The position numbers and the translations under genes are program-made. The notes beneath the pieces were generated by a model that was not told the DNA's origin, ran no database searches, and saw only the letters and a program-made list of their open reading frames with translations. DNA of 35,817 nt from a virus, in IMG/VR virus record IMGVR_UViG_3300042934_000215, positions 1 through 35,817 of that record. One strand, 5' to 3'. Positions 117 through 35,817 of the stretch are shown in pieces; the first letter of the stretch is position 1; each line of letters begins with the position of its first letter.

Positions 117-127
117 TTATCTCTTTG
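117..127. other. attL core (11-bp direct repeat)
   Basis: TTATCTCTTTG is identical to 35691-35701, where it encodes the last codons and stop of rpsI (S-K-R-stop on the minus strand). Flanking bases differ on both sides, so the visible identity is 11 bp. Host DNA lies to the left and phage DNA to the right. An integrase arm-type repeat 40 bp inside the phage side supports the call. Confidence 0.82.
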
Positions 128-2088: not shown

Positions 2089-2445
2089 TTATTCCTTTCT
2101 TAGTTGTTCCTCAATACTGGTTAACCTTTTTTCGTGGTCGTCTAGCCTTTTGTGTTCAGACTTAAAGGACTGCTCCATAACAATTAATTTATCGTGGTTT
2201 TCCTTTGTATCCTGCCTTACTGTGTTAATCTCATTCTCAATACGGCTTAACGTATTTTTAATATTATCCAGTGCTAGCATAATACCCGTCTGCTGGGCTG
2301 TTTCTTCTTTTACTTTCTGCTCGTCTTTTTCCCTGTTGGTTTGCTCTGCTCGGTTCTGATTTTTTTTGATGTTGTATGTATTGCCTACCATCATAAATAG
2401 AGAAACCAGCAGGGCTGCTATAGCTATATAATTTGCTGGTGTCAT
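2089..2445 (-). CDS. Membrane-anchored coiled-coil protein
   Basis: A 118-residue protein with one N-terminal transmembrane helix (about 6-22) and then a long charged helical region with heptad character (about 60-118, NTLSRIENEINTV and KRLDDHEKRLTSIEEQL). Its ATG overlaps the reverse transcriptase stop as ATGA, so translation is coupled. The topology resembles small lysis or haemolysin-type proteins (XhlA/BhlA-like) common beside Gram-positive phage holins. Function is inferred from topology and position only. Confidence 0.65.
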   Translation of the reverse strand: MTPANYIAIAALLVSLFMMVGNTYNIKKNQNRAEQTNREKDEQKVKEETAQQTGIMLALDNIKNTLSRIENEINTVRQDTKENHDKLIVMEQSFKSEHKRLDDHEKRLTSIEEQLRKE

Positions 2446-3509
2446 ACTCGCGCGTCCCTTTCCCGCTCTGCATCTTTTACTAAAGCGTGTATTTTCTGTC
2501 TTAAGTGGTAGCTGTCTGCGTGTTCTGCGTGCCCCGTCCAGCTTGTTACGCTCTTTTGTATTTGCTCTTTAGTTAAGCTGCCCCTGCGGTACTTCTTGAC
2601 GCTTTTCTTTATCCGCTCTATGCTGTCTCGCCTTACTTTGCGGTGCGTCGGTCTGTGCTTGTACCCCACAAAGTCTATACCGTTCTTGCTGCATAGTATT
2701 GTTGTCTTAGGGTTAAGCTCTAGCTTTAGCTCTTTTGTAATATATTTCTCTATGTCAACTAGCCAGTGCTGTAGCTTTTTCTTATCTGGGCTTAATATTA
2801 TAAAGTCGTCCATATAGCGTATATAATACTTTGCTCGCAGCTCATTTTTAACATACTGGTCTAGCTTGTTAAGATAAATGTTAGCGAAAAGCTGGCTTGT
2901 AAGGTTACCTACTGGTATCCCTACGCCGTCTGGCATTTCTCCGTTGTGGTCTATAATTCTTTCTATGAGTACTAAAGCCTTTTTGTCTTTAATAACCCTG
3001 CGTATTTCTTTCTTTAGTACCTCGTGGTTAATGCTTTTAAAATACTGGTGTATATCTGCCTTAATTGCATATATTGGCTCGCTATGGTACTTACTCCAAT
3101 CGTAAAGCCATTTGTACAGCGTATCAGACGCAGCGTGCATACCCTTACCTTTTCGGCAGGCATAAGAGTTATATATAAAACGCTTGTTAAATATAGGCTC
3201 TAATACCGTAACTATAGCGTGCTGTATCACTCTGTCGTAGAATGGCAGTGCCATAATAAGCCGCTCTTTTGGTTCGTATACTTTAAAATAGCGGTACTCG
3301 TTAGGCTCATAGCTCAATAACTCTATGTCCCTGCGTGCCCGCTCTATGTTTTCCTCTTTATCTCTTGTAAATTGTAATACCTCTTTACGGTATCTTTTGC
3401 ACTTTCTCGCTTTGTTATAGGCAATAAGTATATTGTCGTAACCGCTCATGGCTGCATGTAATGTCTGTTGGTTTCCCTGTCTATCTAGTGTGCTGCTAAT
3501 CCTCTTCAA
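2442..3509 (-). CDS. DGR reverse transcriptase
   Basis: A 355-residue group II intron-like reverse transcriptase. Fingers and palm motifs are visible: the first catalytic Asp in IKADIHQYF (about D152), the GIPVGNLTSQ motif (197-206) characteristic of DGR and retron enzymes, and the YMDD box (232-235). There is no maturase or endonuclease domain, as expected for a DGR enzyme. It copies the adjacent TR RNA with errors at adenines, and the cDNA replaces VR in the target gene. The start is a TTG at 3509 with AGGA about 10 bases upstream; there is no better ATG. It lies downstream of TR and Avd in the classical VP-Avd-TR-RT order. Confidence 0.95.
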   Translation of the reverse strand: MKRISSTLDRQGNQQTLHAAMSGYDNILIAYNKARKCKRYRKEVLQFTRDKEENIERARRDIELLSYEPNEYRYFKVYEPKERLIMALPFYDRVIQHAIVTVLEPIFNKRFIYNSYACRKGKGMHAASDTLYKWLYDWSKYHSEPIYAIKADIHQYFKSINHEVLKKEIRRVIKDKKALVLIERIIDHNGEMPDGVGIPVGNLTSQLFANIYLNKLDQYVKNELRAKYYIRYMDDFIILSPDKKKLQHWLVDIEKYITKELKLELNPKTTILCSKNGIDFVGYKHRPTHRKVRRDSIERIKKSVKKYRRGSLTKEQIQKSVTSWTGHAEHADSYHLRQKIHALVKDAERERDARV

Positions 3510-3836
3510 GTTAAAATGTTCCTGCCTTTCGCCGCAGCTACTAGCCAGTAGCTTTACTTTTTCTTTTTGCCCTTAAGGGCGGGTACGTCGGCTCTGACTA
3601 TAGAATATTAAACACTTGCTAATATTCGTGTAATCCTTGCTAGTGTTCCGTAGATACGCTAAGCCTATAATGTTCTCACTAAGTCACACGCCCCACGCAC
3701 GCCGATATTCGTGTTGACATTCCACGGGTAATTGTTGCAATTCACGGCACGCGCGCCCGCGTTAACGCCATTGTTCCAGTTGCCACCCGCCAGCAGTGCA
3801 TAAGTTGGCTGTTGATAAGCCGCCGCCCCACGTATT
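3510..3836 (-). ncRNA. DGR template RNA region
   Basis: A 327-base non-coding interval between Avd and the reverse transcriptase holding the 118-base template repeat. Toward the RT gene it contains the 12-bp palindrome GCCCTTAAGGGC (3571-3582) followed by an A-rich stretch. In studied DGRs the RNA priming and Avd-binding structures lie in this position. The extent of the RNA is inferred, not read from the sequence. Confidence 0.6.
3683..3800 (-). repeat. DGR template repeat (TR)
   Basis: 118 bases, 110 identical and ungapped against VR at 4236-4353. All eight differences are A in TR (minus strand) and G or T in VR. In the target reading frame TR would read N-W-N-N and N-C-N-N-Y-P-W-N-V-N-T, so mutable AAC/AAT codons are concentrated where diversity is needed. 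TR lies between Avd and RT on the same strand. Confidence 0.96.
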
Positions 3837-4184
3837 TTATTTAAGACTTTCTATTACCCCGTGCATAATGCAGCCTATTTCTGTAAGCCGCTTGCAGCTT
3901 TCGCCGTAGTGCTGGGCGTTCATGCTGCTATACCCTAGGTCATTTGCTAGCCTTATTAACTCTTTTAACTCTTGCAGTTCTACGTCTGCGCTATAAACAT
4001 GGCTCTTTGTTCCTGTTTTCTCCCACTTTATAACGCAGCGTAGCATATCCAGTATTACGCTTTTTGTCTGTGTCTGTAGCGTGAACTTTTCCCGCTTTGG
4101 GTATCTATCTAGCAGCGGGTATACATATAGCAAAAAGTCGTATATTCTCTGGTGTAGTATACTTGTCTTTTTCATATCCGCCAT
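3837..4184 (-). CDS. avd: DGR accessory variability protein Avd
   Basis: A 115-residue, all-helical protein with the features of the Avd/S23-like four-helix bundle family: an LHQRIYDFLLYVYPLLDRYPK start, basic helices and an ELIRLANDLGYSSM segment. Avd forms a barrel-like pentamer that binds the RT and the TR RNA and is required for mutagenic homing. It lies between the target gene and TR, as in the Bordetella phage BPP-1 element. The start ATG has GAGG 7 bases upstream. Confidence 0.92.
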   Translation of the reverse strand: MADMKKTSILHQRIYDFLLYVYPLLDRYPKREKFTLQTQTKSVILDMLRCVIKWEKTGTKSHVYSADVELQELKELIRLANDLGYSSMNAQHYGESCKRLTEIGCIMHGVIESLK

Positions 4185-4199
4185 TTTTTTACCTCGTAC

Positions 4200-4218
4200 G
4201 GCTGGGCTTTCGCCCGCC
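4200..4218 (-). other. DGR target-site hairpin downstream of VR
   Basis: On the minus strand GGCGGGC-GAAA-GCCCAGCC forms a 7-bp stem with a GAAA loop and one bulged A. It starts 17 bases past the end of VR and just after the target gene stop. A hairpin or cruciform with a four-base loop just 3' of VR is a known element in BPP-1-type DGRs that promotes homing. Confidence 0.7.
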
Positions 4219-4226
4219 TAAGCAGT

Positions 4227-5354
4227 TTACAGACTGTCACACGCCCCACGCACGCCGATATTCGCGTAGACAATCCACGGGTAATCGTAGCAATCCACGG
4301 CACGCGCGCCCGCGTTAACGCCATCGTTCCAGTCGCCACCCGCCAGCAGTGCAGCTAATGAGTACGCGTAGTATTGGAATATGTTACCATGTTTGTCCCC
4401 TAACGGACTTGTTAAGTCCCAGCCCCAGCCTATACTTGCGTGGTAGGTTGGGTTAGTTGCCTGCTCTGCTCTGGTTATGAGTTCGTCCAGCCATTCCCAC
4501 ACGTTGCCTACTGCATCACGTACGCCGATAGCGCTAACTGCATTTGCTACATTTCCTGTAGTCGTTCTCGCTGTGTTGGTCGTTGCCGTCCATGCGTTCG
4601 TGTTGCTAGCGTCTAATCCCTGCGGACTTCCAAAAGCATAGGCGCAAAACTCGCTATAGTTTGGCATACGTTTGCCACTCTTTGCTAATCTTTCTGCGAA
4701 TGTATACCAGTGCATACCCTCTGTACCCGTCATAGGCGTAGCGCCGTAATCCGACTTAAGCCCGTAAGCTCCGTCGTCACTGTTTAAATAAATGTCTACC
4801 CATGTGCCGCCCCCTAAATATACCATGCCCTCTGGCGTACATTTTGGGCGGTGTCCTAAAGTCCATACGCTACGTGGTACTATTCCGTCGTATACGTTGC
4901 TTTCCCAGCTGCTACCAAAAATAACGCCGCCGCTATTGGTCGGCTGGTTATTTGCATCTACTGTACGGCATTTGCCATAGTGGAAACCGCCTATTTTTCT
5001 GCTGTTCGTAAAGTTCCAGCCCTGCGGATACGTTGAGTTAAGAGAAATATAATATTTTTCGTCGTTGTCGTTGTTCTGCGTGTCGCAGATATAAACGTAG
5101 TAATCATTCCCTACGCTAAATGCTGTACCCGTATCTAAATTTGCTGCGGTTAATACCGTTGTTGCTGTTTCAAATACGCCAGAGCCAGCTATTGCTATTA
5201 CGCAGTCGCTAAGTATTGTAAGCTGCTGCGCTCCGCTTGCATATAAATACTCTTTTGTCGGTGCTACAATGTCGCTAATTAATGCTGCCTTGGATACATT
5301 AAATAACGCTCTCCTATCTGTTTTTGTAATATCGTCTATCAATAATCTACTCAT
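4227..5354 (-). CDS. DGR target: variable receptor-binding protein (FGE/C-type lectin fold)
   Basis: A 375-residue tail-tip protein. The C-terminal half has the formylglycine-generating-enzyme-like C-type lectin fold used by DGR variable proteins: GMHWYTFAERLA, RMPNYSEFCAYAFGSPQG, RDAVGNVWEWLDE, LLAGGDWNDGVNAGARA and a final GVRGAC. The last 40 or so residues are VR. Relative to TR the changes are N-D four times, N-Y twice, N-I once and T-A once. The N-terminal part probably attaches to the baseplate. An upstream TTG in frame (5363) is less likely than the ATG at 5354, which sits 12 bases after AAAGGGGG and overlaps the previous stop. Confidence 0.92.
   Translation of the reverse strand: MSRLLIDDITKTDRRALFNVSKAALISDIVAPTKEYLYASGAQQLTILSDCVIAIAGSGVFETATTVLTAANLDTGTAFSVGNDYYVYICDTQNNDNDEKYYISLNSTYPQGWNFTNSRKIGGFHYGKCRTVDANNQPTNSGGVIFGSSWESNVYDGIVPRSVWTLGHRPKCTPEGMVYLGGGTWVDIYLNSDDGAYGLKSDYGATPMTGTEGMHWYTFAERLAKSGKRMPNYSEFCAYAFGSPQGLDASNTNAWTATTNTARTTTGNVANAVSAIGVRDAVGNVWEWLDELITRAEQATNPTYHASIGWGWDLTSPLGDKHGNIFQYYAYSLAALLAGGDWNDGVNAGARAVDCYDYPWIVYANIGVRGACDSL
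4236..4353 (-). repeat. DGR variable repeat (VR)
   Basis: 118 bases at the 3' end of the target gene, ungapped match to TR with 8 substitutions (five A to G, three A to T, none at other bases). The last 25 or so bases (minus strand) match TR exactly and are GC-rich, as expected for the initiation of mutagenic homing site. Confidence 0.96.
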
Positions 5355-5778
5355 ATTGTGCAAGTACCCCCTTTATAGCTGTTAAGTCGCTCTCTGTCAT
5401 TCCCATAGCTGCTAGTACGTCATTTGTATTCATAATGCTAATACTTTCCGCTCCCTCTGGCACTGCTGCCGTAAGCGTTAGTGCTGTTGTGCTTGGTGTA
5501 TCTGTGCTGTTGCTTAGCGTATGTGTTACTGCTGCCAGTGTTCCCGTTGCAGCTCCGCTAATAAATTTACTGCCTTTTAATGCCTCTGCACAATACATTA
5601 CTTTCAAGCTCTTTCTGTCGTCTGATGCGCTTATAACCTTGCACTCTATGTAGCGTCTTTTTTCTAACGCTGCTAATGCTGCTGCCAGTCCTGCTGCCGC
5701 TAGCTCCCCAGTCTGTACCAATGCTAGGCAGTTGTAGTAGTCCTCTTTCGTTTTAAGTATCTTAGGGTATCCTTTCAT
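5347..5778 (-). CDS. Small structural protein preceding the DGR target
   Basis: A 143-residue protein beginning KGYPKILKTKEDYYNC, then an Ala-rich segment, a beta-rich middle of Ser, Thr and Ala, and a charged end. Its stop overlaps the target ATG and its own start has a strong AAAGGAG. Position between the baseplate protein and the variable protein suggests a tail-fibre or adaptor component. I do not recognise a named family. Confidence 0.7.
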   Translation of the reverse strand: MKGYPKILKTKEDYYNCLALVQTGELAAAGLAAALAALEKRRYIECKVISASDDRKSLKVMYCAEALKGSKFISGAATGTLAAVTHTLSNSTDTPSTTALTLTAAVPEGAESISIMNTNDVLAAMGMTESDLTAIKGVLAQYE

Positions 5779-16500: not shown

Positions 16501-17769
16501 CTATTCCTGCTGCCCCTCTATTGGTTCTGCTTGGTCTGTTTGGTTTGTTCCCTCTGGTTTCGGTGGTTCTATTGGCTGCTGTATAACTGCTGGTGGCTCT
16601 CCGTCTTTATCCAGCTGGCTAACCTCTGTATACTCTTTTCTTATGTAGTACTTTTCTCCACCGTCAACGTGTGCCATGTTCCATATATCCATTACGCCAT
16701 TACGATTAAGTAGCCCTCTATCGAATAGCTGTGTTGACACTTGCAGCTTAGTATTATTGCTGGCATATTGCAGCCTGTTTGCACTAAACGTAATCATATT
16801 ACCGCAGGCTAGCTCTCTCGTTGTGTATGTCATATTAGACATTACTAACGATAGTTGCAACGCGAACGGCTCTATTTTTCCCTCGTAGTAGGCGTTCCAC
16901 GTATCCTCATTAAACTTGTTTTGTAATATATCCATGTTCGTACCAAAATGAGTACATACATTCTCGTTAATTTGCTGCATCTGTAGTGCGTTTGGTGTAT
17001 ACGGCTTACTTTCTACTTGCTTAAGGTCGCTAAATTTGTTGTCGTAAATAATCATGCCGCTTTTGTTGTCCGCGCTTAAGTTGTCCTCTGTAAATCTCTC
17101 GCGCTCTTTCTTAATATCTTCTGGTTTTAGCATGTTCGCAACTTTAGCCATAAAGCGTATGCTTGCAGAGTTCTTAACCGCATTAATAATGCCCTCGTTA
17201 TTTGTATGTATTAGCTGCATGGTCGGTAAAAGCGTCTTGTTATCTTCTCCGAAAAGGTCGTTTTGATATTGACACTTTGTAAGAATACCTACCCGCTCAA
17301 ATTCAATAGCTGCCTTTTCTCCGTTTGCAAATGTATAACGTAAATATACTTGCCCTTGGAACTCTATAACCTCGCATAGCTGCGGTAGTAGTGGATACCA
17401 GCCAGCTAACCCGCCGTACATATCCTCTATCGGAATAATAAAGGCTGTGTTATCACATTCTAGTATAGTCGCTATCCTTGCTATGAACTTGGTAGTATCC
17501 ATAAATGAATTGGGCTTAAACTGTAATATTCTTTCTAGCTGTTTATACGCATTTCCTGTAATTTCTGGTTTAAGTTTACTGCAATGCGTTGCAAAGCTAT
17601 TAATAGCCGTACGTGTCAAGTCCATTTCGTATATACCGCCGTTGTACGTAGTAAATACTGGGCTATATCCATTAAGCATTTTAAAATATTCGCCCATAAT
17701 TTTTCTGTCTTTTGTCTTAAACAAATAATCTACAAGTCCCGTGCTGTTCACTCCCTTTCTATGCTGCAT
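16501..17769 (-). CDS. Portal protein (HK97 family)
   Basis: A 422-residue portal. Typical segments are the YSPVFTTYNGGIYEMDLTRTAI N-terminus, an ILECDNTAFIIPIED strand, the IHTNNEGIINAVKNSA helix and the C-terminal DRGLLNRNGVMDIWNM. The dodecamer forms the DNA channel and docks the terminase. The tail is Pro/Gln/Glu-rich. The ATG at 17769 overlaps the TerL stop by 11 bases; a GTG at 17751 sits inside an AAAGGGAG and is an uncertain alternative. Confidence 0.92.
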   Translation of the reverse strand: MQHRKGVNSTGLVDYLFKTKDRKIMGEYFKMLNGYSPVFTTYNGGIYEMDLTRTAINSFATHCSKLKPEITGNAYKQLERILQFKPNSFMDTTKFIARIATILECDNTAFIIPIEDMYGGLAGWYPLLPQLCEVIEFQGQVYLRYTFANGEKAAIEFERVGILTKCQYQNDLFGEDNKTLLPTMQLIHTNNEGIINAVKNSASIRFMAKVANMLKPEDIKKERERFTEDNLSADNKSGMIIYDNKFSDLKQVESKPYTPNALQMQQINENVCTHFGTNMDILQNKFNEDTWNAYYEGKIEPFALQLSLVMSNMTYTTRELACGNMITFSANRLQYASNNTKLQVSTQLFDRGLLNRNGVMDIWNMAHVDGGEKYYIRKEYTEVSQLDKDGEPPAVIQQPIEPPKPEGTNQTDQAEPIEGQQE

Positions 17770-19417
17770 TTTTCAGCAGTTCGCCTATCTCTGTAAAATA
17801 TTTTTGTCTTACTGTCATAGCATCTATAACAGATACAAAACCGTCGATATGTGACCGCTGTTCTATCTTAATAGGTCTAAATTTTCTGGTTTCCATATTG
17901 TGCTTAAGAGCTACATTAAGGAAATGTGCTTTAAGCAAATTATTACTTGCAATTTTAAAGTTGCCATCTTTAATAATACCCTCGAACTCTCTTATAACTG
18001 GCGTTAGGTTCTCGCCTTGCCATACGTCGTCCATGTGGAAACCGTAACCTTTTAAGTCGTCTACTAGGTACTGTGCACTGTACCTATCGTAGCCTATCTC
18101 CAAAGTACGTATGCTGTATTCATTTAGCAGCATGACATACCAGTTAAATACGTCGTGATAGTCTACGTAATTTTCCCCGCTTAGTGTGAGGTTCTTTTTC
18201 TTTACAAAAATGTCATAAGGTACGCCGTCTGTAGCTTGTAGTGTCTCTAACCTATTTCTAGGCATAAAGAATTGAGTAAACGCATACAATACGCCCTCGC
18301 GCTCTATTATCACGCTTGCAGCTGTTAAGTCAGTTGTCTGGCTTAAGTCTATACCACCTACCGCGTAGCAGTCTCTAAAATCCTCTAGTGTAAGGTTAAC
18401 TGCTGCTGCATCTACTGTGCCATATTCCAGCCATGCTATAGAGCTGTTTTGCTTAATGTTACAGTACTTAGTTAAAAACTCTGCTTTCTTGCTTAAGCTG
18501 CCCTCTGCTACTGCTATCTCATCTATAAAGAAACCCTCTTTTACAGATACGCCCATGTTAGGGTTAGCTTTCTTTAGTTCTTCTATATCGTTCCACTTCT
18601 CTACGTCGTCTATCATGTAGAGAAATGGCAAAAGCCTACGCTCCTTGCTATTTCCTTTCAAGAAACTTGTAGCACGTTTCATAAGCTCGTCGTATATACT
18701 GTCGTTAATGTAACCAGCTGTAGAAATACTTAAAATCATAGGCTGCTTACGCGCTCCTAGTGCGGATTTCATAACCTCGTATTGTTTTAGCCCGCCGTCT
18801 CCGCTCCATGCTGCCATTTCGTCGCATACTACTAGCTGCGGGTTAAATCCGTCTGACTTTTTAGCATTAAAAGCTATAGGCTTAATAACGCTATTTGTAT
18901 CTGCTATGTAAATATCACTACGCCTTTTCTTTGCCAGCTCTAGTAGCTCGTCCTCTGCCTGTACCATCTGGTAAAATCCGTCGTATACTAATGCTGCTTG
19001 GTCTAGTTTTGGTGCTAGGCAATATATTTCTTGCCCGTACTCTGGCTCTAAATATGCCATATATGCAATTATCGCAGATGCAAATAATGACTTACCGTTT
19101 TTACGTCCAATTACTATAAAAATTTCTCTAAAAACCCTAATTTTTTCTGCATCTACTATGCCAAACATGGTACAAATTATAGATTTTTGCCATAATTCCA
19201 GCTTAATAAGGTCGTTGCGTCCTTTGCTGTGGTGGCAAAAACTTTCTATGAATTTTATAGCTTTATTTGCCTTTTTAGCGTTGTAAAAAAACTCCTGTTT
19301 TTCTAGCCCGTCTATAATGATTTTATATATATCAAGTATCCACTTTCCTACGATAATCTCGCCGCTAGTTATCTTAGCGTAGTACTCGTAAATATAGTTG
19401 CAATATGGTGCTATAAT
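17759..19417 (-). CDS. Terminase large subunit with non-canonical start
   Basis: A 552-residue packaging motor. Walker A GRKNGKS (about 104-110), Walker B LVVCDE (about 195-200) and a C-terminal RNase H-like nuclease beginning GGIDLSQTTD. The first ATG (19168) would remove 83 residues that clearly belong to the family (YYAKITSGEIIVGKWIL, FIESFCHHSKGRNDLIK). The frame is open from the TerS stop TAG at 19420, yet it holds no ATG, GTG or TTG before 19168. Candidate starts are ATT (19417) or ATA (19414), with GAGGA 5-8 bases upstream. Stop readthrough from TerS is an alternative because both genes share one frame. Confidence 0.9.
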   Translation of the reverse strand: MIAPYCNYIYEYYAKITSGEIIVGKWILDIYKIIIDGLEKQEFFYNAKKANKAIKFIESFCHHSKGRNDLIKLELWQKSIICTMFGIVDAEKIRVFREIFIVIGRKNGKSLFASAIIAYMAYLEPEYGQEIYCLAPKLDQAALVYDGFYQMVQAEDELLELAKKRRSDIYIADTNSVIKPIAFNAKKSDGFNPQLVVCDEMAAWSGDGGLKQYEVMKSALGARKQPMILSISTAGYINDSIYDELMKRATSFLKGNSKERRLLPFLYMIDDVEKWNDIEELKKANPNMGVSVKEGFFIDEIAVAEGSLSKKAEFLTKYCNIKQNSSIAWLEYGTVDAAAVNLTLEDFRDCYAVGGIDLSQTTDLTAASVIIEREGVLYAFTQFFMPRNRLETLQATDGVPYDIFVKKKNLTLSGENYVDYHDVFNWYVMLLNEYSIRTLEIGYDRYSAQYLVDDLKGYGFHMDDVWQGENLTPVIREFEGIIKDGNFKIASNNLLKAHFLNVALKHNMETRKFRPIKIEQRSHIDGFVSVIDAMTVRQKYFTEIGELLKNAA

Positions 19418-22615: not shown

Positions 22616-23884
22616 TTATTTCGTCGTCGTTTCTTGTGCCCCCCCCTGTTGTTCGGTGTCCGTTTCGGACACCTTTAGCGTCTCTATGCCTAATATGCAG
22701 TAATCCTCTTGTAGTCCTGTGTACTCTTCCAGCATGTATGTTATTACTGCCTCTATTGTCCTGCCTGTAAATTTTCCGTTGTTAAATTCTAGCATCTTAA
22801 GCCCGTCTCCCACTTTGTAGCCTCTATCATTCTTTCTTAGCTCAAAAGTCTTTTTACGGCTTGCTACGTCCTCGTAGAATGATGTAGCTATTTTAATCTC
22901 GTGTACTTTTTCTGCTGCTGCCTCGCTTGGTAAGTGTTCCAGCCGTTTTGTGTCTGCCTGCTCTCTTAACTTTCTTGCTGTCTCTCTGTCTATTGCGTCC
23001 TGCTCTTCGTTATAACGTTGCTCGTCTGTCTTTTCTGCATCTGCTTTGCTAACGTACTCGTCGCACTTCTCACAAGTCCCAGTTTTCACGTTGCATGTAA
23101 CGTAATTTAAGCAGTGATAGCATAAACTCGTTATGCTCTCTGGGTGCGGTGTTTTGTAATCGTCCCCAGCTTTCCGCTCTGCTACTTTTGCTGCTATCTC
23201 TTTTGCTCTAACGTCCTCGCCTGCTGCCGCAGCTGCCGCTATTGCTTTCTGGTCGTCCTCTGGCAGCTTAGATGCCTCGTAAGCAGCTGTTATACCTATA
23301 TTGCCTTTTTTAAATTCTTCCTTTGCCTCGTCCGTAAGATTATTATTAATGCTTTCCATTCTGGCTACATTAGTGCTGCTCTCTCCCATAATCTCTGCTA
23401 TTACGTCCCGCAGCTTTCCTTGTATCTCTAGCCCGTCCTCTTGCTGTGCTCTAATAAGTGCTGCCTTAAGGCGCTTAGCTTGCTCTGTTTTTTCGTAAGG
23501 TGTAAGCTCTCTGTTATACGCGTTTCCTACCAGTAAGCTAAGCTCAAAGGTCGCCTCTGTCATGTCTCTGTATAAATATCTAACACTCTTATACTCTTCG
23601 CGTCCTCTTTCAATGTTTAAAATATTAGCTAAGTTACGTCTGTGCCCGCTTATTATCTTAAATTCTCCGTTTACGCGTCCTAGTACTGTAGGCTGCTGCT
23701 GCCCTACGGTTAAAAAGCTGTCTGCTAGCTCTTCTATGTTGTTCTGGCTATAAAAGTTGCTTTCGCTTGGTTTTACGTCGTAAGGGCTTAAAAATATCTC
23801 TGTGTATTTGTCTATCGTTCCTGCTGCCTCTGCTTTGCTTTGTACATTTACAATATCCATAAAGCTAAATTTGCCTGCTGCCAT
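22616..23884 (-). CDS. ParB-like protein with zinc-finger and DUF3850-like C-terminal domain
   Basis: A 422-residue protein. Residues 30-90 form a ParB N-domain (FLSPYDVKPSESNF, EFKIISGHRRNLANIL with the GHRR box near 77). Residues 90-210 carry the central HTH region (TPYEKTEQAKRL, IMGESSTNVARMESI). A Cys cluster C-x2-C-x4-C and C-x2-C follows (about 255-275). Residues 325-405 resemble DUF3850 of the ASCH/PUA group (HEIKIATSFYEDV, KKTFELRKNDRGYKVGD, YCILGIE). It follows ParA by one base. The combination suggests DNA partition or replication control. Confidence 0.85.
   Translation of the reverse strand: MAAGKFSFMDIVNVQSKAEAAGTIDKYTEIFLSPYDVKPSESNFYSQNNIEELADSFLTVGQQQPTVLGRVNGEFKIISGHRRNLANILNIERGREEYKSVRYLYRDMTEATFELSLLVGNAYNRELTPYEKTEQAKRLKAALIRAQQEDGLEIQGKLRDVIAEIMGESSTNVARMESINNNLTDEAKEEFKKGNIGITAAYEASKLPEDDQKAIAAAAAAGEDVRAKEIAAKVAERKAGDDYKTPHPESITSLCYHCLNYVTCNVKTGTCEKCDEYVSKADAEKTDEQRYNEEQDAIDRETARKLREQADTKRLEHLPSEAAAEKVHEIKIATSFYEDVASRKKTFELRKNDRGYKVGDGLKMLEFNNGKFTGRTIEAVITYMLEEYTGLQEDYCILGIETLKVSETDTEQQGGAQETTTK
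22656..22672. repeat. 17-bp palindrome, copy 2, inside parB
   Basis: Identical to 13930-13946 and again read V-S-E-T-D-T. Arms of 7 bp around AAA. A palindrome inside parB is a possible ParB binding site. Confidence 0.9.
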
Positions 23885-23885
23885 C

Positions 23886-24677
23886 TTACTTGCCCCCTTT
23901 CATGCCTAAGTAGCTGGTTACAAATTTCTTGTAGTCCTGTGCCGCTCCGCATCTACAGCTATACTCGTATGCTGGCTTATTAAAAAAGGTGCTCTCTACT
24001 GCTTTGTCTGTGTATCTTATCTTTCCCAATACTTGTATTTGGTTCTTTTTCTCTAGCCATTCCATGCCAGCTATATTAGCGTCATTATTGCGGTACATGG
24101 TAACTAGGCAGCCTAATAACTTTATATCTGGGTTAATTGCCTTAGCCTCTTCTATCTGCTCTGTAATAATCTCTAACCCCTCTAACGCCCACTCGTCTAT
24201 TTTTACTGGTACTATAACCTCGTCTGTAATCTTAAGTGCAGCTATTACGTTGTACGCTATGTCTGGTGGATTATCAATAATCATATAATCGTAAAACTGT
24301 GCTATCGACTGGCTGCCCTCTACGTTTCCTGCTGGCGCATTTATCATTTTTTCGTATCCGCCTATCTGGTCGCCGTTACTTTTTCCCAGTTCCCATACAG
24401 TGCCCATAAGTGACATATTACTAGGTATTACGTCTACTCCGTATCTGCAATCCTTTATTAACTGCGTTGTATGCGTATACTCTCCTCTTAACGCCTTAGC
24501 TGCGTTGCACTCTCCTGTTCCCTCATAGCAGCTAAACGCCTTGCTTACATTTCCCTGCTTGTCGTTATCGAGTACTAACACTTTATAACCTCTCTTGCCT
24601 AACTCGTATGCCATATTGTAGCTGGTGTAGGTCTTTCCTACTCCGCCCTTAAGATTAATTATGCTTATTACTTTCAT
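23886..24677 (-). CDS. parA: ParA family ATPase
   Basis: A 263-residue Soj/ParA ATPase. Deviant Walker A KGGVGKTYTS (about 10-19), LDNDKQGNVS (Walker A' region), YMIIDNPPDIAYNVIAAL (Walker B) and EVIVPVKIDEWALEGL. No N-terminal HTH. With ParB it would partition or position DNA, suggesting an extrachromosomal phase or a role in replication. The ribosome site is GAAAGAGAGG, 8 bases upstream. Confidence 0.94.
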   Translation of the reverse strand: MKVISIINLKGGVGKTYTSYNMAYELGKRGYKVLVLDNDKQGNVSKAFSCYEGTGECNAAKALRGEYTHTTQLIKDCRYGVDVIPSNMSLMGTVWELGKSNGDQIGGYEKMINAPAGNVEGSQSIAQFYDYMIIDNPPDIAYNVIAALKITDEVIVPVKIDEWALEGLEIITEQIEEAKAINPDIKLLGCLVTMYRNNDANIAGMEWLEKKNQIQVLGKIRYTDKAVESTFFNKPAYEYSCRCGAAQDYKKFVTSYLGMKGGK

Positions 24678-25923: not shown

Positions 25924-26043
25924 CTAGTGTCTCTCTTTCTCTTGGTTCTTTCCTGCGTTCCTTATTGCCATTATAGCTGCCTCTATTGCTGCTATAACCA
26001 CCAGCGCGATAATAACCAGCCCTACTGTAATTATTGCTCCCAT
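25924..26043 (-). CDS. 39-residue single-span membrane peptide
   Basis: ATG at 26043 with GAGAGGGGGC just upstream, directly after the HUH gene. Residues 4-27 are hydrophobic (IITVGLVIIALVVIAAI) and the end is basic (RNAGKNQEKERH). Five of its eight Ile codons are ATA. Function unknown; similar one-span peptides occur elsewhere in this operon. Confidence 0.6.
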   Translation of the reverse strand: MGAIITVGLVIIALVVIAAIEAAIMAIRNAGKNQEKERH

Positions 26044-29416: not shown

Positions 29417-29649
29417 TCCTTAACCCTCTCTTTCATAAGTGACTTGTAAAACTTCGCTTTTGCTGTTATATCGTTTGTTATTCCCAGCTCTAACGCTGCT
29501 GTTAATGCCTGCTGCCTCGTCCAATTCTTAAAAGGCTGCGTCCCGTCTATCTCTGACGCTTTCCAGTATTCCTCTATAGTGTCTAATGCCTCTTGCCCCT
29601 GCTTGTCTAGCGTTAAGCCTAGCTGTACTGTTATGTATTCCTTACTCAC
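29413..29649 (-). CDS. Small hypothetical protein
   Basis: A 78-residue protein with a strand at the start (EYITVQLGLTLDKQGQEALD) and helices (WTRQQALTAALELGI, AKFYKSLMKER), a layout reminiscent of ribbon-helix-helix regulators. Start GTG at 29649 with GAGAGGGG upstream. The assignment is tentative. Confidence 0.6.
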   Translation of the reverse strand: MSKEYITVQLGLTLDKQGQEALDTIEEYWKASEIDGTQPFKNWTRQQALTAALELGITNDITAKAKFYKSLMKERVKD

Positions 29650-30187
29650 GCTGTAGCCCCTCTCTTTTGTCTGCTATCATGGCTGCCCGTGTTCTTTTCT
29701 TAATTGCGTCCTGCATAGCCATGCGCTTAATGTCGTCCTCTGTAAGTTCTCTTACGTCTATGTTCCTGTGCGGTGCGTCGCTTGGAAATATGCCTTGTTT
29801 TTGTATGAACGCCTGCATAAATGTTTCCATTTCTTCATAAAAGCAATTTCTGTAGAACTCAAATTCTAGCTCTATCTCTATCCGCTGTGCCTTTGTGCAG
29901 TAAGTCCCTATTTTTTGCCGTGTTCCCGTTGTCCTGTAATATGCTCTGCCTGTTTCCGCTCCAATAACCTTATACATACACTGCTTAAGTAGCGTAGTTT
30001 CGTGTTTTCCGCTGTAGCTAAACAAAAAGTACTCTACCTCGTCTGTTTCCAGCTCTTCCAAACTATGTAAGCCGTTCTTTTCTAGCATCTTTTGTAACAT
30101 GGCTGCTGCGGTGTCTTTTTCCCCGCCTACACCTCTCTCTGCCAGTGCTTGCAGCTTTTTAATTCGTTGTACCGTCTTTTCGTCCAC
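29642..30187 (-). CDS. DUF2786-like protein
   Basis: A 181-residue protein whose N-terminus, RIKKLQALAERGVGGEKDTAAAM then LEKNGL, matches the DUF2786 helical motif. The middle (FEFYRNCFYEEMETFMQAF) and basic C-terminus resemble phage members of that group. Start GTG at 30187 with GAAAGAGAGG upstream. Biochemical role unknown. Confidence 0.7.
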   Translation of the reverse strand: MDEKTVQRIKKLQALAERGVGGEKDTAAAMLQKMLEKNGLHSLEELETDEVEYFLFSYSGKHETTLLKQCMYKVIGAETGRAYYRTTGTRQKIGTYCTKAQRIEIELEFEFYRNCFYEEMETFMQAFIQKQGIFPSDAPHRNIDVRELTEDDIKRMAMQDAIKKRTRAAMIADKREGLQRE

Positions 30188-30191
30188 TCTT

Positions 30192-31031
30192 TTAGCCTCT
30201 CTTTCGTGTAGTTAGTTCTGCTAACGTCATTTGCTTAAAATTGTCTTGTAAATCCTCGTCTATGTCGTCTATATCCATGCAGTCGTTAAAAATATGCTGT
30301 AAGCTCTTTCCTTTCTTCCATGTATGCTCTATTTTCATTTCCGCCCTAACGTACTGGGCTGCTATCTCTGGGTATCGTTTCATGTTCTCGGCTGCGTGTC
30401 TGTCTGGCATGAACATACAAAACATGCAGCTACAGCGCCCTATATATTCGTAACATGGGTGCGGTTCTATCTGTAATTCTCTTCCCCATTCAAACATTTT
30501 CCCTTTTTCGTAATCTAGGCAATGTCTATACCAGTGACACGTAAAATCTGCTACTCTCTTTGTCTTAAGTGTTGTGCTGTGATATTCCAGTTCTGGCAGC
30601 TTTGCTCTTCCTGCGCTTTCGTCCCTGCGCTCGCCAGATAAAAATAAGCACTTTGTACCCAGCTCCGCTCTGTGCTGCCGTATCCACTTATCAGTTACCG
30701 CAGTCTTAAGATATGCCGTACACCATCTATTTTTCATGTCTGGGAACTTAAGGCGCTCATTAAGTAGAAGTCCTAAAAATCCTCTGCTATCCTGTAGTAG
30801 TACTGGCTTAACTCCCATAAATGCGGCTACCTTATAGAAAATAGCCACGTTTTCTGGATACTCGCAGCCAGTGTCGCAGTATAGTAGGTATATCTTTTCT
30901 TTTGGAAAGTTCTTTACCGCCCAGTGTAAAACGCCCGTACTGTCTATTCCGTCGCTGTAGCTTACTATTACGCTGCTGTACTCTAAGTCGCTCTGTAAAC
31001 CCTCTGGCGGTATTATTTTTGTCCTTGCCAT
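30192..31031 (-). CDS. PAPS-reductase-family PP-loop protein
   Basis: A 279-residue PP-loop ATP pyrophosphatase-type protein. SYSDGIDSTG (26-33) is the PP-loop (SxGxDS), followed by YLLYCDTGCEYPE and WCTAYLKTAV. A Cys cluster GRCSCMFCMFMP near residue 210 could hold an Fe-S cluster. The family includes CysH and the DNA-sulfur protein DndC; phages often carry unassigned members. With no sulfur pathway partner nearby, nucleic-acid or nucleotide modification is only a suggestion. Start ATG with GAAAGAGAGG. Confidence 0.85.
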   Translation of the reverse strand: MARTKIIPPEGLQSDLEYSSVIVSYSDGIDSTGVLHWAVKNFPKEKIYLLYCDTGCEYPENVAIFYKVAAFMGVKPVLLQDSRGFLGLLLNERLKFPDMKNRWCTAYLKTAVTDKWIRQHRAELGTKCLFLSGERRDESAGRAKLPELEYHSTTLKTKRVADFTCHWYRHCLDYEKGKMFEWGRELQIEPHPCYEYIGRCSCMFCMFMPDRHAAENMKRYPEIAAQYVRAEMKIEHTWKKGKSLQHIFNDCMDIDDIDEDLQDNFKQMTLAELTTRKRG

Positions 31032-31061: not shown

Positions 31062-31133
31062 TGCGCCCTGCGGTAGTCGAAACCGCTCGCGCAGCTTATA
31101 AGGCTGCCGCTCTAACCGTTGAGCTAAGGGCGC
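31062..31133 (-). tRNA. tRNA-Ile with anticodon UAU
   Basis: A complete cloverleaf can be folded. Acceptor GCGCCCT/AGGGCGC, D stem GCTC/GAGC with loop AACGGTTA, anticodon stem GCAGC/GCTGC with loop CTTATAA, 4-base variable loop, T stem GCGGT/ACCGC with loop TTCGACT, discriminator A. The anticodon 34-36 is UAU, reading AUA. CCA is not encoded. It lies in the early operon between two genes. Confidence 0.9.
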
Positions 31134-31138
31134 TCATA

Positions 31139-31327
31139 TTAGTACTTTCCGTTAGGGTTTTTCTCGCTATGGCTTATGTACTGATACTTTCCGCCGCCTA
31201 CCTCGTAAAACTCGTATATCCTGCCGTCTTTTGTAATTCTTCCTATGTATGTACCGCTTGGCGTTTTGTTATGTGGTGCGCTCCATGCGTTCTCCCATGC
31301 TGCCTGTAGCGTCTTTTCGTCCCTCAT
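31139..31327 (-). CDS. Small hypothetical protein upstream of the tRNA
   Basis: A 62-residue protein with TLQAAWENAWSAP and a beta-rich second half (YIGRITKDGRIYEFYEVGGG). The ATG overlaps the previous stop as ATGA. It ends 5 bases before the tRNA. Function unknown. Confidence 0.6.
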   Translation of the reverse strand: MRDEKTLQAAWENAWSAPHNKTPSGTYIGRITKDGRIYEFYEVGGGKYQYISHSEKNPNGKY

Positions 31328-31545
31328 GCTGTAGCTCGCTCCCTTAGCTCTGCTATCTCTTCCTCTATGTTCTTCCCGCTGTATGTAGCTAACATAGGCT
31401 CGCTAATGTGATACGTCCATATGCTACTAAGTTTTACTGCCGTTCCTATTGGTAGGCGGCTAGTCTGTAGCCCTGTCCTTATAAATTGTGGGGATACTCC
31501 CAAAATGGCTGCCGCCTCTTTTACTGATATTCTGTGATTATTCAT
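31324..31545 (-). CDS. Excisionase-like helix-turn-helix protein
   Basis: A 73-residue protein with HRISVKEAAAILGVSPQFI, the winged-helix/MerR-like DNA-binding motif of phage excisionases and small regulators. The acidic C-terminal helix is EEEIAELRERATA. Size fits Xis, which would direct excision with the integrase. Placement in the early operon also fits, though a regulator role cannot be excluded. Confidence 0.72.
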   Translation of the reverse strand: MNNHRISVKEAAAILGVSPQFIRTGLQTSRLPIGTAVKLSSIWTYHISEPMLATYSGKNIEEEIAELRERATA

Positions 31546-33047: not shown

Positions 33048-33076
33048 ATTATATGCCACGTAGAAGCCCTTGTCAA
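33048..33076 (-). promoter_or_regulatory. Early lytic promoter
   Basis: On the minus strand TTGACA (33071-33076), 17 bp, TATAAT (33048-33053), a perfect consensus. It drives the leftward early operon and diverges from the repressor promoter. CGTGGCAT half-sites occur in inverted orientation in both promoters (33053-33060 and 33104-33111), as expected of a shared operator. Confidence 0.92.
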
Positions 33077-33160: not shown

Positions 33161-33532
33161 ATGAATGAGCGTATCAAAGAATTACGTATTGCTCTCGATA
33201 TGACACAAGAAAGTTTTTCGCAGCGCTTAGGTATAAAGCGTAATACTATTGGCAATTACGAGACTGGTAATAGAGTTCCTAGCAATCAAATCATTTTTTC
33301 TATTTGCCGTGAATTTAATGTAAATGAGGAATGGTTACGTACTGGTAATGGAGAAATGTTTAACGCACGTTCTACAGACGAGGAACTAGCTTATATAGTA
33401 GGTAGCGCTATCCCTGCTGCGCCAGAGTATGTAAAGAATACTTTTATAGCTCTTGGTAAGTTGTCGAAAGAATTTTCTAAGGAAGATTGGGAAGTAGTTA
33501 AGAAGTTCGTAGACGCTTTAGCAGGAAAATAA
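33161..33532 (+). CDS. XRE-family phage repressor
   Basis: A 123-residue protein. Residues 1-60 are a standard XRE/Cro-CI helix-turn-helix (MNERIKELRIALDMTQESF, RLGIKRNTIGNYETGNRVPS). The C-terminal half is a short helical region ending FSKEDWEVVKKFVDALAG. It has no S24 autocleavage domain, so induction would not use RecA-stimulated self-cleavage. It is divergent from the early promoter and so is the likely lysogeny repressor. SD AAAGGTGG. Confidence 0.9.
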   Translation: MNERIKELRIALDMTQESFSQRLGIKRNTIGNYETGNRVPSNQIIFSICREFNVNEEWLRTGNGEMFNARSTDEELAYIVGSAIPAAPEYVKNTFIALGKLSKEFSKEDWEVVKKFVDALAGK

Positions 33533-34494: not shown

Positions 34495-35541
34495 ATGAAA
34501 TTACCTAATGGTTACGGTACTGTATACAAGCAAAAAGGCAATAGGCGTAAGCCTTTTGTCGCTCGTGTTACTGTTGGCTATGTAAATAATGAGGAAACGG
34601 GCAAGAATAAACAGTTATACCAGAATATCGGATACTACGAAACTAAAAAAGAGGCGCTTATAGCTCTGGCAGAGTATAACGCTAACCCTTACGACATTGA
34701 CGCTGCAAAGGTTACCTTTAAGGAAATGTACGATAAATTCGTAAGTACTAGCAGCTTTGATAAATTAAGCCGCAGTAGCAAGGCTGCCTACTCTGCTGCC
34801 TATAATCGTTGTGAGCCTATCTGGACTATGAAATTTGTAGACCTGCGCAAGCCCCACTTGCAGGACTGCATAGACGATATAGACGACGCGGGCTGGGGAA
34901 CTAAGAAAAAACTTAAGACGCTTTATAACCAGCTGTACACTCTGGCGCGTGAATGTGATGTATGCGAAAAGAATTATGCAGAGTTCGTAGACATTGGAGA
35001 ACGTGAAACCGTACTAGACCGTACCCCGTTTACTGATGCAGAAAAGAAACTATGCTGGCTGCATATAAAGGACATTGAATACCTAGACACTATTATTATA
35101 CTTCTCTATACTGGTATGCGTGTTAGTGAAATGTTAGATATTAAGACGGCAGACGTTGACATAGAGGGCGGCTTTATGCGTGGTGGCTCTAAGACTTTCG
35201 CAGGCATTAACCGTTTAATACCTATTCACTCTAAAATAATGGATATTGTAAAGAGATATTATAACCCAGATAATGAGTACCTTGTAACTTACCCAGACGG
35301 CGGACATATAAGCTATGGCAATTACCGCGATAGCTACTGGGATAGAATAATGCCTACGCTAAACATGACGCACTTACCACACGATACCCGCCATACTTTT
35401 ATATCTAACATGGATACCGCAGGTGCTAACCCTATGGCTGTAAAGCGTATCGTAGGGCACGCTGGTAACGGCATTACTGAAAAGGTTTATACTCATAAAG
35501 ATATAGAGGAACTTAAGAGAAATATAGAGCTTTTGGCTTAA
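34495..35541 (+). CDS. int: Tyrosine-family site-specific integrase
   Basis: A 348-residue recombinase. The N-terminal 65 residues form an AP2-like arm-binding domain (LPNGYGTVYKQKGNRRKPF), then a SAM-like core-binding domain (about 73-170) and the catalytic domain. The catalytic residues are visible: Arg209 (TGMRVSE), His296 and Arg299 (HDTRH), His322 (VGHAG) and Tyr332 (VYTHKD). It would join attP to the end of rpsI, and its gene ends 150 bp from the attR core. SD AAAGGCGG. Confidence 0.97.
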   Translation: MKLPNGYGTVYKQKGNRRKPFVARVTVGYVNNEETGKNKQLYQNIGYYETKKEALIALAEYNANPYDIDAAKVTFKEMYDKFVSTSSFDKLSRSSKAAYSAAYNRCEPIWTMKFVDLRKPHLQDCIDDIDDAGWGTKKKLKTLYNQLYTLARECDVCEKNYAEFVDIGERETVLDRTPFTDAEKKLCWLHIKDIEYLDTIIILLYTGMRVSEMLDIKTADVDIEGGFMRGGSKTFAGINRLIPIHSKIMDIVKRYYNPDNEYLVTYPDGGHISYGNYRDSYWDRIMPTLNMTHLPHDTRHTFISNMDTAGANPMAVKRIVGHAGNGITEKVYTHKDIEELKRNIELLA

Positions 35542-35690: not shown

Positions 35691-35701
35691 TTATCTCTTT
35701 G
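35691..35701. other. attR core (11-bp direct repeat)
   Basis: TTATCTCTTTG, identical to 117-127. Here it is the last three sense codons and stop of rpsI plus adjoining bases, so the phage side restores the gene end exactly. Confidence 0.82.
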
Positions 35702-35817
35702 AGAACTGAGGAGCACGACGAGCTGCTTTTAAGCCGTACTTCTTTCTTTCCTTCATTCTTGGATCTCTTGTTAAGAATCCAGCTTTCTTTAATACAGGTC
35801 TGTAATCCTGATCTGCA
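35691..35817 (-). CDS. rpsI: 30S ribosomal protein S9, 3' end (partial)
   Basis: The minus strand encodes [18 protein letters not shown] and the terminal [10 protein letters not shown], the highly conserved C-terminus of bacterial S9 whose tail reaches the ribosomal P site. The gene runs off the right edge. Its stop codon lies within the att core, so the prophage leaves it intact. It carries two GATC sites, unlike the prophage. Confidence 0.96.

Follow-up and report, generated by a model that had tools for sequence, protein, structure and literature searches.

The window, by which the whole 35,817-nucleotide stretch of DNA analysed here is meant, is an integrated prophage of a temperate Lachnospiraceae siphophage from a gut bacterium, and its early region contains a canonical tRNA-Ile gene with the anticodon UAU (Table 1). 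The gene would appear, with a probability of about 0.65, to encode a functional early-operon phage tRNA which is processed and charged by the host, reads AUA codons without lysidine and supplements the host's own tRNA-Ile2(LAU).

Table 1. Positions of the tRNA gene and of other features of the prophage and its host flank in the window
Feature	Position	Strand	Basis or remark
att core TTATCTCTTTG, left prophage end	117..127		joint-longest (11-nt) direct repeat between the ends
TerL	17759..19168	-	Pfam; query for finding relatives
DUF2786 protein, next early-operon gene	29642..30187	-	Pfam PF10979
PAPS-reductase-like PP-loop protein	30192..31031	-	Pfam PF01507 (6e-10), PHROG 424 (4e-29), PADLOC SspD/DndC-type matches
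tRNA-Ile gene, anticodon UAU, 72 nt, CCA not encoded	31062..31133	-	ARAGORN, Rfam RF00005, fold z
Anticodon UAU (positions 34-36), loop CUUAUAA	31098..31100	-	sequence
62-aa ORF directly upstream of the tRNA	31139..31327	-	ORF list, sequence
73-aa ORF, PHROG 6058 (function unknown)	31324..31545	-	PHROGs
Sigma-70-type promoter-like site, candidate early promoter of the tRNA operon	33048..33076	-	12/12 match, 17-nt spacer; consensus match only
CI-like repressor, divergent from the early operon	33161..33532	+	Pfam HTH_3, Phage_CI_repr
Tyrosine integrase	34495..35541	+	Pfam PF00589 (7e-18)
att core TTATCTCTTTG, right prophage end, sharing bases with the stop codon of rpsI	35691..35701
Host flank: 3' end of rpsI (ribosomal protein S9 C-terminus)	35691..35817	-	translation and DNA identity

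An initial annotation of this DNA had placed a tRNA-Ile(UAU) at 31062-31133, and scoring with tRNA-detection software bore this out. ARAGORN reported one tRNA in the whole window, tRNA-Ile(tat), on the minus strand and with exactly these ends; the Rfam family RF00005 matched it over its full length with 63.8 bits (gathering threshold 29, E 8.9e-12); and RNA folding predicted a cloverleaf of -34.6 kcal/mol (z -2.99), with 0 of 200 shuffled sequences folding as well. The acceptor stem is GCGCCCU/AGGGCGC with discriminator A73, the D-arm stem GCUC/GAGC, the anticodon arm GCAGC-CUUAUAA-GCUGC with a normal 7-nt loop including U33 and A37, the variable loop has 4 nt, and the T-arm is GCGGU-UUCGACU-ACCGC. 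Position 34 is U instead of C, and the tRNA is thus not of the TilS substrate type. Two pairs are unusual: 53:61 in the T-stem, normally G:C, is U:A, which is also the case in the tRNA of a related prophage (L347:9768-9839), and 29:41 is A:U instead of C:G. The main identity elements for the isoleucyl-tRNA synthetase (IleRS) of E. coli are A73, C4:G69, U12:A23, C29:G41 and A38. The window tRNA possesses A73, C4:G69, U12:A23 and A35-U36-A37-A38, while C29:G41, a pair which helps the E. coli enzyme, is replaced by A29:U41.

The pairs U53:A61 and A29:U41 could point to an uncharged or inactive passenger tRNA, gained by recombination; the presence of the tRNA is variable among related prophages, and the UAU tRNA of L. 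plantarum was reportedly found not to be charged with isoleucine (work attributed to Tomikawa, 2018). Such a passenger is nevertheless very improbable, considering that every arm of the window tRNA is free of decay and that UAU tRNAs recur in the relatives L321, L460 and L347, where several stems show compensatory changes.

The statement in the initial annotation that UAU tRNAs are uncommon holds for bacteria, where they are nearly absent (PMC8007984) and where tRNA-Ile(UAU) was described from 19 species (PMC4013482), but not for phages. At least 64 viral contigs with an ARAGORN-confirmed UAU tRNA were obtained in a first pattern scan, and a second pattern yielded 80 contigs with UAU versus 37 with CAU tRNAs, the UAU set overlapping in part with that of the first scan; these counts may include viruses of eukaryotes. 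Among the matches listed for 299 Lachnospiraceae genomes, at least four UAU tRNAs were confirmed; the loose pattern returned mostly noise, plausible matches being kept only when confirmed by ARAGORN, and the count may be low, since the pattern misses T-arms like that of the window tRNA. Of these four, three have phage terminase or head genes as neighbours, and the fourth belongs to an array of eight tRNAs. Two annotated Lachnospiraceae phages, Ruminococcus phage phiRgPS_6 (MT980839.1, 36393-36466) and Blautia phage Montmirail (ON453898.1, 18649-18721), also carry a tRNA-Ile with UAU in a loop CUUAUAA, as in the window; their acceptor and T-arm sequences differ, and the window tRNA is distinguished from theirs by its place in an early operon beside a PAPS-reductase-like gene. 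By contrast, Morgado and Vicente are cited in PMC8007984 for phages being without the same tRNAs that bacteria lack. The UAU tRNA is rare in the host family and common in phages, and the copy in the window represents a known phenomenon.

The tRNA gene is situated within the phage genome, where att sites, integrase, TerL and repressor are all present. A second 11-nt repeat between the ends, GCTTTTAAGCC, equals the att core in length. The flank of about 130 nt from rpsI is closest to the Lachnospiraceae genomes G149, G423, G042 and G145 (91-97% DNA identity). The integrase shows at most 48% identity to any in the 299 Lachnospiraceae genomes; related integrases are also found beside rpsI in G145, G170, G051, G140 and G188. 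TerL is 91% identical to that of a Lachnoclostridium An196 prophage and 77.5% identical to those of Butyrivibrio phages Arawn and Idris. A temperate phage with a tyrosine integrase and one tRNA is reminiscent of tRNA-dependent lysogeny (PMC10865867), in which integration destroys a host tRNA and the phage copy takes its place. Here, however, the attB site is formed by the 3' end of rpsI and not by a tRNA gene; no host tRNA gene is disrupted, and this explanation was ruled out. The window also contains a complete diversity-generating retroelement (2442-5363), consisting of a reverse transcriptase (2442-3509), a template repeat (about 3691-3800), Avd (3837-4184) and a variable tail protein (4227-5363); over 110 nt, all eight differences between the template repeat and the variable repeat (about 4244-4353) fall on template adenines. 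ParA-like and ParB-like genes (22616-24677) occur in this phage as well as the integrase.

The stop codon of the 62-aa ORF, which matched neither Pfam nor PHROGs, lies 5 nt before the 5' end of the tRNA, and the PAPS-reductase-like gene starts 30 nt downstream. Since these gaps are too small for a promoter of its own, the tRNA is probably cut from the leftward early-operon transcript. It would be transcribed polycistronically with the early operon, released by the host's RNase P and 3'-end processing, and supplied with CCA by the host. The 73-aa ORF of PHROG 6058 stays near the tRNA also in the relative L347, as determined by tblastn.

Codon usage gives mixed support for a role in decoding. 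Of the isoleucine codons of the whole phage, 430 of 727 (59%) are AUA, corresponding to 40.5 per 1000 codons. The smaller samples on which the initial annotation had relied were confirmed by counting, namely five of eight isoleucine codons in the 39-aa ORF at 25924-26043 (minus strand), and about half in the N-terminus of TerL, where the complete gene has 21 of 37. The comparison with host genes that had been suggested there showed AUA to be rarer in nine sampled Lachnospiraceae genomes (11-34% of isoleucine codons), each phage-host comparison that was tested lying far beyond chance. Frequent use of AUA by the phage is therefore real in relation to the host family, but it does not exceed what a general preference for codons ending in A predicts: the value of A/(A+U+C) is 0.578 in four-fold boxes and 0.582 for isoleucine (ratio 1.01). 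For most of the sampled hosts the ratio is 0.28-0.82, AUA being used less than their own preference for A would predict; an exception is G014, from a small sample, with 1.49. Moreover, among 13 related prophages, carriers of a real tRNA (AUA fraction 0.36-0.50) did not differ from non-carriers (0.38-0.52; p 0.94), by which AUA richness as a mark of tRNA carriers was ruled out; it is thus a trait of the phage group. Viral contigs with UAU tRNAs and those with CAU tRNAs likewise showed no difference (median AUA fraction 0.28 versus 0.24; p 0.22). In favour of AUA decoding are a cloverleaf well above the cut-off, the isoleucine features, the excess of AUA over the host family and the mostly phage-borne nature of the rare UAU tRNAs in Lachnospiraceae; the case is weakened because AUA use is no higher than the preference for A predicts and is equal with and without a tRNA.

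On the host side, a search for TilS and tRNA-Ile(CAU), as the initial annotation had recommended, revealed both in the sampled host-family genomes. All 23 genomes searched gave a match to TilS; 22 scored above the curated cut-off, and in the remaining one the match is split in the assembly. Among the tRNAs recovered from G149, one of the genomes closest by the rpsI flank, and from GAM79 (G002), fMet, eMet and Ile2-type CAU tRNAs were present, and no UAU tRNA. A lack of TilS or of Ile2 in the host was thus ruled out for the sampled genomes. This runs counter to the earlier proposal that the tRNA could supply AUA decoding without TilS, since TilS is not missing from these genomes; the window tRNA would therefore supplement AUA decoding and replace no missing function. 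It would read AUA without requiring lysidine and, by adding to the minor host tRNA-Ile2(LAU), could help the translation of the AUA-rich phage mRNA. Bacterial tRNA-Ile2(CAU) of the lysidine type has the same codon target and a similar D-arm and anticodon loop, but carries C34 for TilS instead of U34.

The replacement of C29:G41 and G53:C61 also weakens the case for decoding, as do the dependence of UAU tRNA charging on the IleRS and the report of an uncharged UAU tRNA in L. plantarum. With the E. coli enzyme, charging of UAU tRNA is reportedly limited by Trp905 (W905), which is part of the CPRCW motif. In a comparison of seven host sequences, from which L494 was left out, the six clean ones were of the long, eukaryote-like type (type-2) and lacked the CPRCW motif that the E. 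coli enzyme has at its C-terminus. The IleRS of Mycoplasma mobile charges tRNA-Ile(UAU), whereas that of E. coli does not do so efficiently, and B. subtilis with tilS deleted survives on unmodified tRNA-Ile(UAU) (PMC4810244). Because of the missing motif and of these precedents, charging of tRNA-Ile(UAU) in the host family appears plausible by analogy; isoleucine would be attached by the type-2 IleRS of the host. The M. mobile tRNA and the B. subtilis suppressor share with the window tRNA the strategy of reading AUA with an unmodified U34 (PMC4013482, PMC4810244), but they stand in for a missing TilS, while the sampled host-family genomes keep theirs. Prophages of Latilactobacillus curvatus are likewise temperate Firmicutes phages with AUA-decoding tRNAs and with AUA use above that of the host (PMC10688831); they differ in belonging to another host family and in carrying mostly CAU, with 7 CAU and 1 UAU among 10 tRNA-Ile genes (PMC10688831).

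Three types of element alternate in a slot in the early region of related prophages, about 7-12 kb upstream of TerL. The first is an Ile2-like CAU tRNA (GAM79, [R.] faecis, G329, G319, G326 and L351; loci in L316, L318, L326 and L343), which resembles Ile2 and not Met by its loop CUCAUAA, C4:G69/C5:G68 and D-loop. The second is a UAU tRNA, found in IMSAGC_003, L460, G375 and the window, with loci of relatives in L321, L460 and L347. The third, present in many relatives, is a tRNA-like RNA, in which acceptor and T-arm are recognisable but the anticodon region is abnormal. The CAU and UAU tRNAs, having different anticodons and the same codon target, argue for a role in AUA decoding. The window tRNA is 78-82% identical to other UAU tRNAs, 66-74% to phage CAU tRNAs and 61-68% to host Ile2; judging by these identities, the UAU state would be as likely to have originated by replacement as by a single change of C34 to U34.

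The alternation of CAU and UAU among relatives might also suggest that the tRNA replaces a host tRNA-Ile2(LAU) destroyed by an anticodon nuclease of the host at infection, where U34 in place of lysidine would escape recognition; phage tRNAs were proposed to resist anticodon nucleases by changes in the anticodon loop (PMC10264068). No sign of such a defence role, which the initial annotation had also considered, and no nuclease directed at tRNA-Ile2 emerged from the analysis, and position 34 is the sole difference between CUUAUAA and the Ile2 loop CUCAUAA; we consider this explanation quite unlikely.

The tRNA-like RNAs were located at L317:6865-6938, L320:5602-5676, L322:11474-11548, L327:6582-6674, L281:1501-1593 and L325:5831-5924; a short type has a loop of 11-13 nt and a long type a bulged hairpin with two CUAUAG motifs, and more divergent versions in L314 and L319 were recognised by eye. 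Gene order varies: in the window the tRNA precedes the PAPS-reductase-like gene, whereas in L326 and L322 the element follows it. Close relatives of this gene retain the ribosome-binding region, with no tRNA upstream. PAPS-reductase/DndC-like PP-loop genes adjoin a tRNA or tRNA-like gene in L004, L322, L326 and L281, being upstream of the tRNA-like gene in L281. A link of the PP-loop neighbour to tRNA or DNA modification is possible, if speculative.

A covariance model places a conserved, strongly covarying RNA of about 170 nt in more than 20 relatives, in most cases immediately 3' of the tRNA or tRNA-like element (L003:1204-1372, L316:5930-6100, L326:11226-11395 and about 20 further loci). 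In 19 distinct sequences, 96.8% of the cells are paired, versus 35-44% for slid structures, and 19 double-change pairs (51 cells) were counted, versus 7.2 (11.3 cells) in shuffles; these statistics are biased toward pairing, because the structure served to fit the alignment. No Rfam match was obtained at E<=1. This RNA is a more novel lead than the window tRNA.

Several relatives have retained a tRNA-like RNA that lacks a normal anticodon arm, so that decoding is not the trait preserved in every case. The tRNA fold might be retained mainly for the processing or structure of the early transcript, as a site where RNase P/Z would cut and free a downstream message or RNA, with decoding secondary. 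The position of such RNAs in many relatives directly 5' of the conserved structured RNA would agree with this, as would the embedding of the window tRNA between ORFs 5 and 30 nt away. The window tRNA, however, has an intact anticodon arm and isoleucine features, and the covariance model found no structured RNA in the window (best score 10.3 bits), and we regard processing as the main role to be unlikely here. Rather tentatively, the early region could be viewed as an RNA module in which the tRNA fold is constant, usually 5' of the 170-nt RNA in relatives, while the decoding part changes freely (CAU, UAU or none usable). On this view, a phage RNA-processing module would repeatedly have gained, lost and recoded an AUA tRNA, and the UAU tRNA would be one of the resulting states; of this module, only the tRNA is left in the window.

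As a supplementary reader of AUA, the window tRNA is a candidate for an unmodified-U34 route which is carried into hosts already having the lysidine system, and a host family with a eukaryote-like IleRS may tolerate a UAU tRNA. With CAU, UAU and anticodon-less versions occurring in related prophages, roles in codon supply, evasion of nucleases and RNA processing can be tested directly against each other.
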